Source: Vicinamibacterales bacterium (lineage in GTDB: Bacteria; Acidobacteriota; Vicinamibacteria; Vicinamibacterales; UBA2999). From it: a stretch of DNA of 64,000 nucleotides. The stretch covers positions 1-64,000 of the forward strand of contig JAUXWO010000117.1 in NCBI GenBank assembly GCA_030680175.1, given 5' to 3'. Below, piece by piece: positions 3,303 to 22,552 of this stretch; positions within the stretch are counted from its first letter, which is position 1; every line of letters starts with the position of its first letter. The position numbers and the translations under genes were made by a program. The notes below the pieces were generated by a model. That model made no database searches, was not told the DNA's origin, and saw only the letters and a program-made list of their open reading frames with translations.

Positions 3303-4487
<1,185 letters not shown>

Positions 4488-4497
4488 GGCGGATCCT

Positions 4498-4540
4498 TGT
4501 GGCTCTCAGCTCTCAGCTCTCAGCTATCGGCTCTCAGCGA
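4498..4540 (-). repeat. Heptamer array (YGANNGC type) overlapping a gene end
   Basis: Minus-strand units TGAGAGC, CGATAGC and TGAGAGC repeat with a 7-bp period. The array runs into the 3' end of the adjacent hydrolase gene: its last codons (GAG AGC CGA TAG) are repeat sequence, so the array supplies the stop codon. Confidence 0.8.
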
Positions 4541-5180
4541 GCGCGTCGCGCGGACCCCAGTCCGCGAGCAGGTCCTCGATGGCGTCGCCCACCTCGCTGG
4601 CGCAGCCCTCGAAGAGGTGGCTGGCCGCGTCGATCACCGCCAGTTCCTTCGGCTCCGGGATCTTCGCGTAGAGTTCGCGCACGGCCCGTACGGGGATCAG
4701 TTCATCCTCTTCGCCGTGGATGAGGAACTTCGGTTTCTCGCTGGCCGTCAGCATGTCGAAGTCGTAGCCGTCGACCGGCGGCGCGATCGCCACGAGCAGC
4801 GACACGCGCGGATCCTCCGCGCCCACCGTGGCCGCAATCCAGGCCCCGAACGACGCGCCCGCGGCCCAGAGCGGCAGGGTGGGGAACCGGGCGGCCGCCG
4901 CGTCGAGGGCGGCGCGGAAGTCGTCCTGTTCGCCCGCGCCCGCGTCGAAGGCGCCGGCACTCAAGCCGACGCCCCGGAAGTTGAAGCGGAGCACCGCGCA
5001 TCCGATCCGCGTGAACCCCTTGGCCGCCTGGTACACCATCCTGGTGTGCATCGTGCCGCCGTGCTCCGGGTGCGGGTGCGCGAGCACCACGACCGTGCGC
5101 GGCGCCTCCGCCGGCAGGTCCCAGAGCACCTCGAGCCGTCCCGCTGGTCCGGCAATCTCCCTCACTACGAGTGCGTGCAT
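4524..5180 (-). CDS. Alpha/beta hydrolase (YdeN/dienelactone-hydrolase-like)
   Basis: A 218-residue cytoplasmic alpha/beta hydrolase. HPHPEHGGTMHTRMV near the N-terminus is the oxyanion-loop segment typical of the small PF12146/DLH-like hydrolases; the nucleophile is the serine of GASFGAW; the acid is in HGEEDELIP and the histidine in ASHLFEG. The start is the ATG at 5180, with a purine-rich GTAGGAG about 12 bases upstream. It lies in the fad operon between another hydrolase and fadA, which suggests acyl-thioester or ester hydrolysis linked to lipid breakdown, but the substrate is unknown. The C-terminal codons come from the heptamer array. Confidence 0.82.
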   Translation of the reverse strand: MHALVVREIAGPAGRLEVLWDLPAEAPRTVVVLAHPHPEHGGTMHTRMVYQAAKGFTRIGCAVLRFNFRGVGLSAGAFDAGAGEQDDFRAALDAAAARFPTLPLWAAGASFGAWIAATVGAEDPRVSLLVAIAPPVDGYDFDMLTASEKPKFLIHGEEDELIPVRAVRELYAKIPEPKELAVIDAASHLFEGCASEVGDAIEDLLADWGPRDALAESR

Positions 5181-18800: not shown

Positions 18801-19199
18801 CCGAAGGTCATGATCATCAACGAGATGGCCGGCTCGGGCGGCGACCTGATGCCCTACATGTTCAAGCGCCGCGGCATCGGCCCGCTCATCGGCACTCGCA
18901 CGTGGGGCGGCCTCGTGCACACGGCCGACACGCCCGTGCTGATCGATGGCGGCACGATGATCGCCCCGCGCGGCGGGTTCTTCACGCGTGACGGCCAGTG
19001 GGCGGTCGAGAACGAAGGCGTCGGCGCCGACATCGAGGTCGAGAACTGGCCGAAGGACGTGGTCGCCGGCGGCGACCCGCAGCTCGAGCGCGCCGTGCAG
19101 GAGGCGCTGCGGCGTCTCGAGGAAGCGCCCGTGGATCGGCGGACCACCGAGCCCGCACCGCCCACGTGGGGCGCGCGTCCGCGGCCGGGCGGCCAGTGA
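15873..19199 (+). CDS. Tricorn-like protease (beta-propeller, PDZ, S41 peptidase)
   Basis: A 1108-residue exported protease of the tricorn family. A signal peptide (FAAWLPLVAAVLIAGATTLG) is followed by WD40/TolB-like propeller repeats recognisable by recurring SPDGR and WSPDS phrases (about residues 40-620), with a Pro-Ala linker around 565-580, a PDZ region near 820-880 and the S41 catalytic domain. The expected residues are visible: His in VGHSYV (about 764), nucleophile Ser in NEMAGSGGD (about 988) and a late Glu in VENEGVGAD (about 1046). It should degrade peptides in the periplasm; archaeal tricorn does so in the cytoplasm. The start at 15873 follows a purine-rich AAAGGACAGA. Its stop overlaps the next gene's GTG. 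Confidence 0.93.
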   Translation: MSNDRRFRRFAAWLPLVAAVLIAGATTLGANGEPTRMLRSPAVSATHIAFAYAQNIWVVERAGGAARRLTSFQGQAGHPRFSPDGRTIAFTGDYAGNADVYVVPVEGGEPVRLTWHPGADTVQGWTPDGTRVLFSSGRATWAPVAAPRFWTVPAAGGVAEPMALPRGYQGRLSPDGRHIAYRMNNSWDEERRNYRGGQNKPIWIVDLKTYDLVSPPWTDSKDIEPVWVGGDVYFLSDRDGVSNIWRYQPATKALTQVTRFTDFDVKTLDGRADAVVFEQGGQVHELDPATGQSRVVSIRATGDFPWMMPRWEDVTARMTNIRLSATGQRVVVESRGEIFTIPAEKGDVRNITRSSASAERQPAWSPDGQWVSYFSDRSGEYRLMIAPQDGIAAPREVALPDPDFYYTPAWSPDSTKLLYTDTNLQVWVLDVATGQARVLGNDPWMVPQRTLNPAWSPDSKWIAYATRLDTLYRAIVIANVETGERRQVTDGLADAMFPVWDASGKYLWFLASTDYGLRSQWLDMTSYDRPQTFALYLAVLKKGEPSPLLPESDEDKGIPVPAAAPAAAPAPEAPAAPVTVAIDFDGFQQRVLAVAGVPERLYSQLAPGVAGSVYFLEAPPRPNMGSTLHRFKLTERRATLFVDDVAEYSVSADGKKLLYRTPTAGGATAAPPALFLVDADKPPTAGQGRLSATLRMHLDPKAEFQQIFDEGWRLQRDFLYVENMHGTDWPAMKRMYGPLLPHVMHRADLTYLLDMMGGEIAVGHSYVRGGALPDVPAPLGGLLGADFTVESGRYKIARIYDAESWNPDLRAPFSAPGLDVAVGDFVLAIDGAPLAAPDSLHRLLDGTANRQTVLTVNRRPVMDGARQVTVVPVANDQGLRTRAWVEENRRIVDRLSQGRLAYVYVPNTGQPGYTSFNRYYFAQQDKAGAVIDERFNGGGSAADYIIDVLQRDFDGYFNNVAGDRRPFTSPSAGIWGPKVMIINEMAGSGGDLMPYMFKRRGIGPLIGTRTWGGLVHTADTPVLIDGGTMIAPRGGFFTRDGQWAVENEGVGADIEVENWPKDVVAGGDPQLERAVQEALRRLEEAPVDRRTTEPAPPTWGARPRPGGQ

Positions 19200-19708
19200 G
19201 CGACCCGTCACCGATCGCCGACGGGGCACCGCGTCCGCTCGACCCCCGTGTGATCACGGTCGACCGGCTCGTCGGGGCGATCAACGCGGTCGTCGTCGCG
19301 TTCGCCCTGCTCGTCGCGCTGCTCATCGTCGTCGTCGCGCCCCGCGTGGCGGACTGGATGAAGCCGCTCGCCGCCCTCGCGTGGGCGGCGGCGGCCTTCG
19401 CCGTCGCCTACCGGGCGTATCGCTGGCCGGCCGTGGCCTATCGGTACGCGTCGTACCGCGTGGATGCACGCGGCATCGAGATCCGTCGCGGCGTGCTCTG
19501 GCGGCAGGTGATCACCGTGCCCCGGTCGCGCGTGCAGCACACCGACGTGGCGCAGGGGCCGCTCGAGCGACGCTTCGGCCTCGGCACCCTCCTGATTCAC
19601 ACCGCGGGCACCGACCATGCACGCGTGCAGGTCCGGGGCCTCGAACACGCGACGGCCAGCCGCATCCGCGATCACCTCCTGCCGGACGAGGGCGGCGATG
19701 CCGTCTGA
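19196..19708 (+). CDS. Bacterial PH-domain membrane protein (YdbS-like)
   Basis: A 170-residue protein with two membrane segments (about residues 28-47 and 55-75) followed by a bPH2 domain (YRYASYRVDARGIEIRRGVL and VPRSRVQHTDVAQGPLERRFG). The GTG start overlaps the tricorn-like gene's stop, and its own end overlaps the next gene, which encodes a larger protein with three such domains. This small-plus-large pair matches YdbS/YdbT of Bacillus subtilis, implicated in envelope stress or resistance to antimicrobial compounds. The biochemical role of bPH2 domains is unsettled. Confidence 0.85.
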   Translation: MSDPSPIADGAPRPLDPRVITVDRLVGAINAVVVAFALLVALLIVVVAPRVADWMKPLAALAWAAAAFAVAYRAYRWPAVAYRYASYRVDARGIEIRRGVLWRQVITVPRSRVQHTDVAQGPLERRFGLGTLLIHTAGTDHARVQVRGLEHATASRIRDHLLPDEGGDAV

Positions 19709-21209
19709 TCACCGGCTGCATCCCCTCTCGATCGCCTTCGGGCTCGGCGCGCAGCTGCGCGAGTTCGCGTGGCCCGCGGTCGCGCTGCTCGTGGGCGCGC
19801 GGTCGACGGGCGCGCCCTGGGAATCCTGGATCCTGCTGGCGCTCATCCCCTACACGCTCCTCTCGGTGGCGCGGTACGTCTCGTTCCGCTACCGCTTCGA
19901 CGAGGGGGAGATGGTGATCCGCACCGGGATCCTCTTCCGCAACGAGCGGCACGTGCCGTACGCGCGCATCCAGAACCTCGAGGCCACCGAGAACCTCCTG
20001 CACCGGCTCGGCGGCGTCGTCGAGGTGCGGCTCGATACGGGGGGCGGCCAGGAACCGGAAGCGACGATGCGCGTGCTGGCGAAGGGCGCGTTCGAGGAGA
20101 TGCGGCGGCGCGTGCTCGAGGAGCGGGGTGCCGCCGGGCCGCGCGAGGACGCCGCCACGGCGCCGCTGTCGCGCACGCTGCTCACGCTGCCCCCGCGCGA
20201 GCTCGTGCTGTACGGCCTCATCGAGAACCGCGGCCTCGTCCTCGTCGGGGCTGCGATGGGCCTGGCCTGGGAATTCGCCTGGGGCGACCGCATGACCTGG
20301 TGGCAGCGCGGGGGCGAGCGGACGGACCGCAACGCCGTGCGCGAGCTGGTGCGCGAGTGGACGAGTGGGATCGAGCTGCCGTTCGACCTGGCCAGCCGCG
20401 TGGTCCTCGGGGTCCTGGCCGTCATCGCCTTCCTCCTCCTCACACGCGCCCTGTCCGTCGTCTGGGCGCTCGTCCGGCTGCACGGGTTCACGCTCGCGCG
20501 GTGGGGCGAGGACCTGCGCATGCAGTACGGCCTGCTCACGCGCGTTGCCACCGCCATCCCGCTGCGCCGCATCCAGACGTTGACGATGCGGGAGAGCGTG
20601 CTGCATCGGTGGGCGGGGCGCGCCTCGGTGCGGGTGGACACGGCCGGCGGCGGCGCCGGCGGATCCGGGCGGACGGAGCGGGCGTGGCTGGCGCCCATCA
20701 TCGTGTCCGGCGAGGTGCCGGCGCTCGTGCGCCACGTCCTGCCTGAACTGGATCTCGACGCGGTGCAGTGGCAGCCGGCGGCCCCCGGCGCCTTCCGGCG
20801 CGCGATCAAGGTGCCGCTGCTGCTGGTGGGCCTCCTGACCCTGTTTCTCGTGCCCTCGAAGGGCGTCTTCGCGCTCGCGGCGCTGCCGGTGCTGCTGCCC
20901 CTGGCCGCGGCCGTGACGCACCTGCACGTCAGGCACCTCGGCTGGGCGGTGACCGAGGCCGCGGTGCTCTTCCGCAGCGGCTGGCTGCTGCGGCAGGTGA
21001 GCGTGGCCCGGTTCGCGAAGATCCAGGCCGTGGCCCTCGACGAGTCGCCGTTCGACCGCCGGGCGGGGATGGCGCGGGTCCGGGTGGATACGGCGGGCGC
21101 CGGCGACCGCTCCCACCGGGTGGCGATCCCCTATTTGCCCCGGGACACCGCCGAGTCCCTGTGTGCAACGCTCGGCGCCGCGGCTGCGCGCACCGAGTTC
21201 CAGTGGTAG
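19698..21209 (+). CDS. Bacterial PH-domain membrane protein, three-domain (YdbT-like)
   Basis: A 503-residue integral membrane protein with three bPH2 domains, each after a pair of hydrophobic helices. The repeated signature is a tryptophan/arginine strand followed by VPYARIQNLEATENLLHRLG (first), AIPLRRIQTLTMRESVLHRW (second) and VARFAKIQAVALDESPFDRR (third), each ending in a VDTAG or LDTGG strand. It overlaps the upstream small PH-domain gene by 11 bp. Function is presumably at the inner membrane, as for YdbT; ligand unknown. The start at 19698 coincides with the first residues conserved in such proteins. Confidence 0.87.
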   Translation: MPSDHRLHPLSIAFGLGAQLREFAWPAVALLVGARSTGAPWESWILLALIPYTLLSVARYVSFRYRFDEGEMVIRTGILFRNERHVPYARIQNLEATENLLHRLGGVVEVRLDTGGGQEPEATMRVLAKGAFEEMRRRVLEERGAAGPREDAATAPLSRTLLTLPPRELVLYGLIENRGLVLVGAAMGLAWEFAWGDRMTWWQRGGERTDRNAVRELVREWTSGIELPFDLASRVVLGVLAVIAFLLLTRALSVVWALVRLHGFTLARWGEDLRMQYGLLTRVATAIPLRRIQTLTMRESVLHRWAGRASVRVDTAGGGAGGSGRTERAWLAPIIVSGEVPALVRHVLPELDLDAVQWQPAAPGAFRRAIKVPLLLVGLLTLFLVPSKGVFALAALPVLLPLAAAVTHLHVRHLGWAVTEAAVLFRSGWLLRQVSVARFAKIQAVALDESPFDRRAGMARVRVDTAGAGDRSHRVAIPYLPRDTAESLCATLGAAAARTEFQW

Positions 21210-21300
21210 CAATCGGCCCTTGCGCTATTCGCCCTGCCGTCGCATGATTGCCGGCACGGGCCGGCCCCAGCCGGGGGTTCCGGCCGCGCCTGGAGGATCC

Positions 21301-22467
21301 ATGGACGTCAAGAACACGTTGTCTCGTCGCAGTTTCGTCGGTGGCGTCGCCGCCGCGCTCGGCTACCTTGGGTTGGACCCGGCCAGCAGCCTGGCCCGCG
21401 CCCAGGCCGGTGGCGGGCGCGCGTCGCTCGACGAGTACGACGCCCTCGCCAAGCTCGCCAACAACGAGAACAACTGGGGCCCGCCGCAGTCCGTGATGGA
21501 CGCGATGAACGGCGCGTGGAAGTACGCGAACCGGTACGGGTACCCCGACGGCAACATCGTGCAGGCGATCGCCGATCATCACGGCGTCTCGCGCGACCAC
21601 ATCCTGCTCGGCGCCGGCTCCGGCGAGATCCTGAACGTCGTCGGCACGACGTACCTGCAGGGCGGGAAGAAGGTCGTTGGCGTGGAGCCGTCGTACGGGT
21701 CGGTCTACTCGCACGCGAGCCGCCTGAACGCCGAGGCGGTGCTCCTGCCGCTCGACGCCGACTTCCGCCAGAACATCCCGCGGATGATCGAGGCGACGAA
21801 GCGCAACTACCGCGAGGTCGGCTTCGTCTACCTGTGCAACCCGAACAACCCGACCGGCCTCATCGTCACCAAGGCCGAAGTGGACCAGCTGCTCGACGGC
21901 ATCCCGGAGGACATCCCGGTGCTGATCGACGAGGCGTATCACCACTACGTCGAGGATGGACGCTATGCGGAGTCGATTCCGCACGTCAAGGCGGGCCGCA
22001 AGGTGATCGTCGCGCGCACGTTCTCGAAGATCTCCGCGCTGGCGGCCATGCGCCTCGGCTACGCGGTGGCGCCGCCGAGCATGATCGAGGAGATGCGCAC
22101 GTACTCGATGGGCAGCATCAACGCGCTGGTGAAGTGGGGCGGCGCGGCCGCGCTCAGAGACACCGCCGCGCAGACGAAGGTGCGCGAGATGACGCGGGAC
22201 CTGCGGACGAAGTACAGCCGCGAGCTCGAGGCCTACGGCTACGAGGTCATCCCCTCGCAGACGAACTTCTTCATGGTGGCCATCCACCGGCAGATCCAGC
22301 CGGTGATCGGCGAGTTCCGCAAGCACGGCGTGCTGGTGGGCCGGCCGTTCCCGCCGATGCTCGAGCACATGCGCGTCTCGATCGGCACGCCCGACGAGAT
22401 GGAGCGGTTCATGACCGCCTTCAAGCAGGTGTTTCCGCCTCGGACCACGACGGTGGCGCAGGGCTAG
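21301..22467 (+). CDS. Tat-exported histidinol-phosphate-aminotransferase-like enzyme
   Basis: A 388-residue class I/II PLP aminotransferase. The N-terminus carries a Tat signal (LSRRSFVGGVAAALGYLGL). The core matches the HisC-like group: LANNENNWGPP, YGYPDGN, LLGAGSGEIL, NPNNPTG, LIDEAYHHYVE and the Schiff-base lysine in RTFSKISALAAMRLGY. A periplasmic location is unexpected for histidine synthesis, and no his genes are nearby, so another amine or amino acid in the envelope is the likely substrate. A strong intrinsic terminator follows 47 bp after the stop, so it is probably monocistronic. Confidence 0.88.
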   Translation: MDVKNTLSRRSFVGGVAAALGYLGLDPASSLARAQAGGGRASLDEYDALAKLANNENNWGPPQSVMDAMNGAWKYANRYGYPDGNIVQAIADHHGVSRDHILLGAGSGEILNVVGTTYLQGGKKVVGVEPSYGSVYSHASRLNAEAVLLPLDADFRQNIPRMIEATKRNYREVGFVYLCNPNNPTGLIVTKAEVDQLLDGIPEDIPVLIDEAYHHYVEDGRYAESIPHVKAGRKVIVARTFSKISALAAMRLGYAVAPPSMIEEMRTYSMGSINALVKWGGAAALRDTAAQTKVREMTRDLRTKYSRELEAYGYEVIPSQTNFFMVAIHRQIQPVIGEFRKHGVLVGRPFPPMLEHMRVSIGTPDEMERFMTAFKQVFPPRTTTVAQG

Positions 22468-22513
22468 CCCATCGCCGATGCCGCCCGCGCCCGTGGCGTG
22501 ACGTGCGTGTCAG

Positions 22514-22552
22514 GACCCGCCAGGCAGCGTGCGCTGCCGGGCGGGTCTTTTT
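22514..22552 (+). terminator. Rho-independent terminator
   Basis: Outer arms GACCCGCC (22514-22521) and GGCGGGTC (22540-22547) enclose an inner stem GGCAGC/GCTGCC, and five Ts follow. The hairpin has 14 or more base pairs and ends the message of the Tat-exported aminotransferase. Confidence 0.9.

Follow-up and report, generated by a model that had tools for sequence, protein, structure and literature searches.

Background

To our knowledge, few PLP transaminases act outside the cytoplasm. PtaA is described as being exported by the Tat pathway together with its PLP and as working in the periplasm during pyoverdine maturation, and PvdN as a Tat-exported PLP enzyme that changes the pyoverdine side chain to yield succinamide; the same source states that PLP is "somehow" regenerated outside the cytoplasm (PMC6206403). 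PA2531, an aminotransferase of P. aeruginosa, has a signal that appears among the Tat substrates of a separate study (PMC6085387). With PtaA and PvdN as established precedents, an exported transaminase is no novelty in itself.

Here we report on a gene in a window of 64,000 nucleotides (the whole stretch of DNA that was analysed) from a Vicinamibacterales bacterium whose assembly (label G000) comprises 5.0 Mb in 143 contigs. The coding sequence, at 21301 to 22467 on the plus strand, specifies a protein of 388 residues that joins a predicted Tat signal to a HisC-like PLP aminotransferase fold. Judged from its sequence, this protein represents a separate clade of an already known kind, the exported PLP enzymes. 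The account that we find reasonably likely is that of a folded, PLP-loaded, fold-type-I enzyme that is exported by Tat and most likely transaminates outside the cytoplasm, and that does not serve histidine synthesis. The protein would take up PLP and fold before export, for which PtaA is the precedent; the twin-arginine signal would then take it, by way of Tat, into the periplasm or onto the cell surface. There, like PtaA, it would transfer an alpha-amino group, with an amino-carboxylate (either free or carried on a peptide or secondary metabolite) and a keto acid as the two partners. Four elements of this account are ones that we infer: that the protein is actually exported, that PLP is loaded ahead of export, that the reaction is a transamination rather than a decarboxylation, and the substrate class.

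Comparison with described enzymes

The window protein is likened to PtaA through the profile NF051461 alone, which spans residues 6 to 376 and thereby nearly the whole protein, signal region included, at a score of 215 bits that falls short of the 500-bit cut-off. The substrate known for PtaA is the pyoverdine Glu, a setting that was not seen around the window gene. PvdN is likewise a Tat-exported PLP enzyme, but its reaction is not a simple transamination; its likeness to the window protein, as well as that of PA2531, is one of description. The best match in NCBIfam is PRK09105 (NF006580), in which residues 4 to 378 align with profile positions 2 to 371 at 256.3 bits (255.8 in a second scan), against a cut-off of 444. 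HisC shares the core fold and the PLP-site residues with the window protein, but the latter scores 223.5 bits on TIGR01141, under the cut-off of 276.55, carries a Tat signal and lies outside a his operon. Membership in PtaA, PRK09105 or HisC was rejected by these curated cut-offs, and because the scores lie beneath all three, no function transfers.

The same genome holds a second HisC-like gene, signal-less and placed within a hisD-C-B-H run on contig C19; its companions hisD, hisB and hisH were identified by visual reading of their translations. This gene also falls under the TIGR01141 cut-off, at 231.6 bits. The scanned neighbours of the window gene include no his genes. Since the his operon has a HisC-like gene of its own, the window protein is not the histidine enzyme, and a role in histidine biosynthesis was rejected on this ground and on that of the HisC cut-off.

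Aminotransferase core and PLP site

A complete HisC-like PLP core had been proposed for this gene from the sequence alone, and the proposal is upheld. PF00155 covers residues 51 to 373 with an E-value of 8.7e-40 (137.4 bits against a cut-off of 19.7), a complete class I/II aminotransferase core, and the protein is of fold type I. The AlphaFold2 model has a mean pLDDT of 86 and a pTM of 0.82, and pLDDT drops below 50 only in residues 1 to 8, 21 to 39 and 385 to 388.

The residues expected around the cofactor are present and conserved. Asn182 of the NPNNPTG motif (21844 to 21846, plus strand), which by family homology we take to contact the PLP ring, is kept in 23/23 rows of the focal clade, as are Asp210 of IDEAY (21928 to 21930, plus strand), the presumed partner of PLP N1, followed by Tyr213, and Lys243 of RTFSK (22027 to 22029, plus strand), presumably the Schiff-base lysine. 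Arg358 of MRVSIGT (22372 to 22374, plus strand), which we expect to contact a carboxylate or phosphate, is invariant in all 24 aligned relatives. All 23 focal rows also retain N55, R78, Y79 and R358, and 22 of them R251.

The closest solved structure is 3ly1 (Z 43.0, rmsd 1.7 over 335 residues, 29% identity), a protein of Erwinia carotovora that its entry title calls a putative HisC and that is the nearest solved match in both sequence and fold. Its numbering runs to at least 392 and its chains hold 346 to 354 residues, so that some 38 N-terminal residues would seem to be missing from the crystallised chain, as they would be with a signal cut off. Other HisC entries follow, and then the decarboxylase CobD, whose structures (1lc5, 1lc7 and 1lc8) align at Z of about 37; models for CobD, GntC and VioD also gave matches below their cut-offs. 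These similarities are consistent with an exported protein that uses PLP for something other than transamination, such as a CobD-like decarboxylation, an elimination or a cyclisation. HisC and aminotransferase models and structures nevertheless score higher, and we regard such chemistry as unlikely, if worth keeping in mind, beside the transamination that we favour.

Export signal and start site

The sequence-only reading had also described an N-terminal twin-arginine signal, and this was confirmed in relatives. The N-terminus, MDVKNTLSRRSFVGGVAAALGYLGL...ARAQA, has the layout of a Tat signal when the translation is read directly: the n-region holds S8-R9-R10, the h-region is VAAALGYLGL, and an AxA-type cleavage is possible near ARAQA, at about residue 36. 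The signal region thus delimited extends from residue 1 to about 35 (21301 to 21405, plus strand). TIGR01409, run on residues 1 to 45 alone, returned 17.0 bits against a cut-off of 16.7, a margin of only 0.3 bit, and the Pfam TAT_signal model reported no match for the window N-terminus. Among nine N-termini scanned with TIGR01409, that of the window protein included, six pass, one (L038) is below the cut-off and two (L035 and L041) gave no report. S8, R9 and R10 are invariant in 24/24 aligned relatives, and ahead of residue 55 no position other than these three and M1 is invariant. Conservation is stronger evidence for the signal than the profile score. Relatives that have no signal do exist (L061-L063 and L033).

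A Shine-Dalgarno-like GGAGG (21292 to 21296, plus strand) lies 4 nt 5' of the ATG, and a GGAG-type Shine-Dalgarno sequence precedes the signal-bearing start in 19/23 rows of the focal clade, a scan that took its rows by the SRR pattern and so probes the start rather than the motif. The sequence-only reading had named a conserved start internal to the gene, past the signal, as an observation that would count against export. Such a start was sought in the same 23 rows and not found; none of the later starts had a Shine-Dalgarno flag, and two rows lack any start after the signal. Because Shine-Dalgarno sequences stand before the upstream start and no later start is conserved, the signal is not a start-site artefact, and an internal start was rejected. 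In one focal-clade orthologue, L014, no ATG, GTG or TTG is found just 5' of the SRR motif and the rest is intact; its start codon may be unusual, or the sequence may contain an error there.

TatC is encoded in the same genome, and the export tag is common to relatives, so the enzyme's place of work is probably extracytoplasmic. The export of a folded PLP protein that was first proposed is well supported by the conserved signal, its start and TatC; the amine transfer that was thought to follow from it is less direct, as HisC-like folds include the CobD decarboxylase. A different outcome of the same signal would be an uncleaved anchor that holds the protein in the inner membrane and lets it act at the periplasmic face, or a binding protein without turnover. 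Distant Tat-signal relatives without the lysine (see below) suggest that some of the wider family can do without lysine catalysis, but the focal clade retains this residue in 23/23 rows and an AxA-type site can be read near residue 36, and we consider either variant improbable. A cytoplasmic HisC-type enzyme, whose twin-arginine stretch would be a chance extension or a mis-called start, has the HisC-like core and the marginal TIGR01409 score in its favour but is very hard to reconcile with an SRR motif kept in every aligned relative, the Shine-Dalgarno pattern with no conserved later start, a HisC-like gene already in the his operon and a score under the HisC cut-off.

Genomic context

Downstream of the gene, RNA folding revealed an intrinsic terminator at 22512 to 22552 (plus strand), a GC-rich stem followed by a U run, which a simple terminator scan had missed. 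The hairpin has a folding energy of -35 kcal/mol and a z of -4.47, and none of 200 shuffles folded as well. Upstream, a bPH_2 gene on the same strand ends at 21209, 91 bp from the focal gene, and no sigma-70-like promoter was found ahead of the latter. The claim of a single-gene unit stands at its 3' end, where the terminator is strong, and is tentative at its 5' end. Positions 18998 to 21209 of the window hold two consecutive same-strand frames, the second with three bPH_2 stretches by profile and the first similar by eye. These two frames may share a transcript with the focal gene.

No recurrent neighbour of the window gene was found over 25 contexts, two of which duplicate the places of two others. 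The neighbour clusters shown (at most 40) can be put down to synteny at the genus level, to scattered matches or to shadow ORFs of the window gene. The earlier view that context gives no substrate is confirmed in this wider sample. Inference of a substrate from neighbouring genes was accordingly rejected, and no substrate is assigned because no neighbour is conserved. That a conserved clade has no recurring neighbours suggests a wider use of PLP chemistry outside the cytoplasm than in pyoverdine maturation, and the clade supplies new enzymes for testing.

Distribution among relatives

Within the family, 17 of 43 genomes encode clade members (identity of at least 59%), and one of the 17 has two copies. 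A sample of 396 genomes from the phylum, in which only four candidates per genome were scored, yielded members in 14 at an E-value of 1e-100. Named relatives are mostly Acidobacteria MAGs, which points to Acidobacteriota as the likely phylum; the named homologues at 51 to 61% identity include Acidobacteria, Gemmatimonadetes and Sulfopaludibacter MAGs and one record titled Cyanobacteria. Matches were present in 316 plasmid records, all below 60% identity, and among the best 30 of the 316 none reached the signal before residue 30. In a tree of 71 rows, the window protein falls inside a 23-row clade with support of 100/99, and neither the tandem Tat-signal paralogues that the genome also encodes nor a distant branch linked to oxidases belongs to this clade. 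Among the literature matches listed, none dealt with this Acidobacteriota clade or with the oxidase pairing, as judged by title or the start of the abstract.

A distant branch linked to oxidases

The distant branch (L043-L060, L065, L066 and L130-L148), also Tat-signal and HisC-like, has 31 rows in the tree, and we see in this oxidase-linked, sometimes lysine-less group the more surprising part of the family. A gene resembling GlxA or galactose oxidase lies in the fetched stretch of 21/31 branch rows versus 0/38 other rows assessed, and at least three Met or His residues occur among the last ten residues in 26/31 versus 0/38. Several of the ten oxidase-less rows are on short stretches; L043, L139 and L144, however, lack the oxidase on 9 to 13 kb, so that the link is strong but incomplete. 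An independent-pairs test of oxidase against Met/His tail, on a tree without the window row, was not significant. The oxidase partner matches PF09118 (one member scanned) and structure 4unm, and most of the 16 oxidase frames read, some of them fragments, contain the motifs FC, RWY, YHS and TH...DQR, to which we ascribe copper and radical roles. The window gene has neither a GlxA-like neighbour nor a Met/His-rich tail, and no GlxA-like oxidase was found near focal-clade genes in the fetched stretches. A search of the window genome with PF09118 gave no match, in a search whose control set likewise matched nowhere.

Seven rows of the branch have another residue in place of the Schiff-base lysine: E in L043, S in L047, I in L049, T in L050, H in L058 and A in both L059 and L066. 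Six of these are full-length and one (L066) is partial, and the tree requires a minimum of five changes to account for the replacements. The six full-length rows retain N182, D210, Y213, R251 and R358. Every row without the lysine is a MAG contig from a single collection, so sequence error is a conceivable source, although the reading frames are uninterrupted and the substituting residues vary.

The branch may be viewed as a possible extracellular module, linked to copper or to alcohol, aldehyde and amine chemistry. More speculatively, and on balance doubtfully, Tat-signal HisC-like proteins could form a wide family for extracytoplasmic amine chemistry, spread over Acidobacteriota and several further phyla. 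The branch whose partners are secreted GlxA-like copper radical oxidases would then aminate aldehydes formed from alcohols outside the cell, or its lysine-less proteins would carry copper or carbonyl compounds. The window enzyme would belong to a catalytic branch that stands alone and adds amino groups to an extracellular product or removes them from it.

Tat-signal aminotransferase genes also occur in tandem. Contig C124 of the window genome has two further ones (L085:2290-3480 and 3506-4666), and adjacent pairs, recognised by coordinates, are present in nine more genomes of the family (G001, G007, G010, G012, G013, G014, G038, G040 and G042). An odd GREA stretch after the signal is common to several Tat-signal members.
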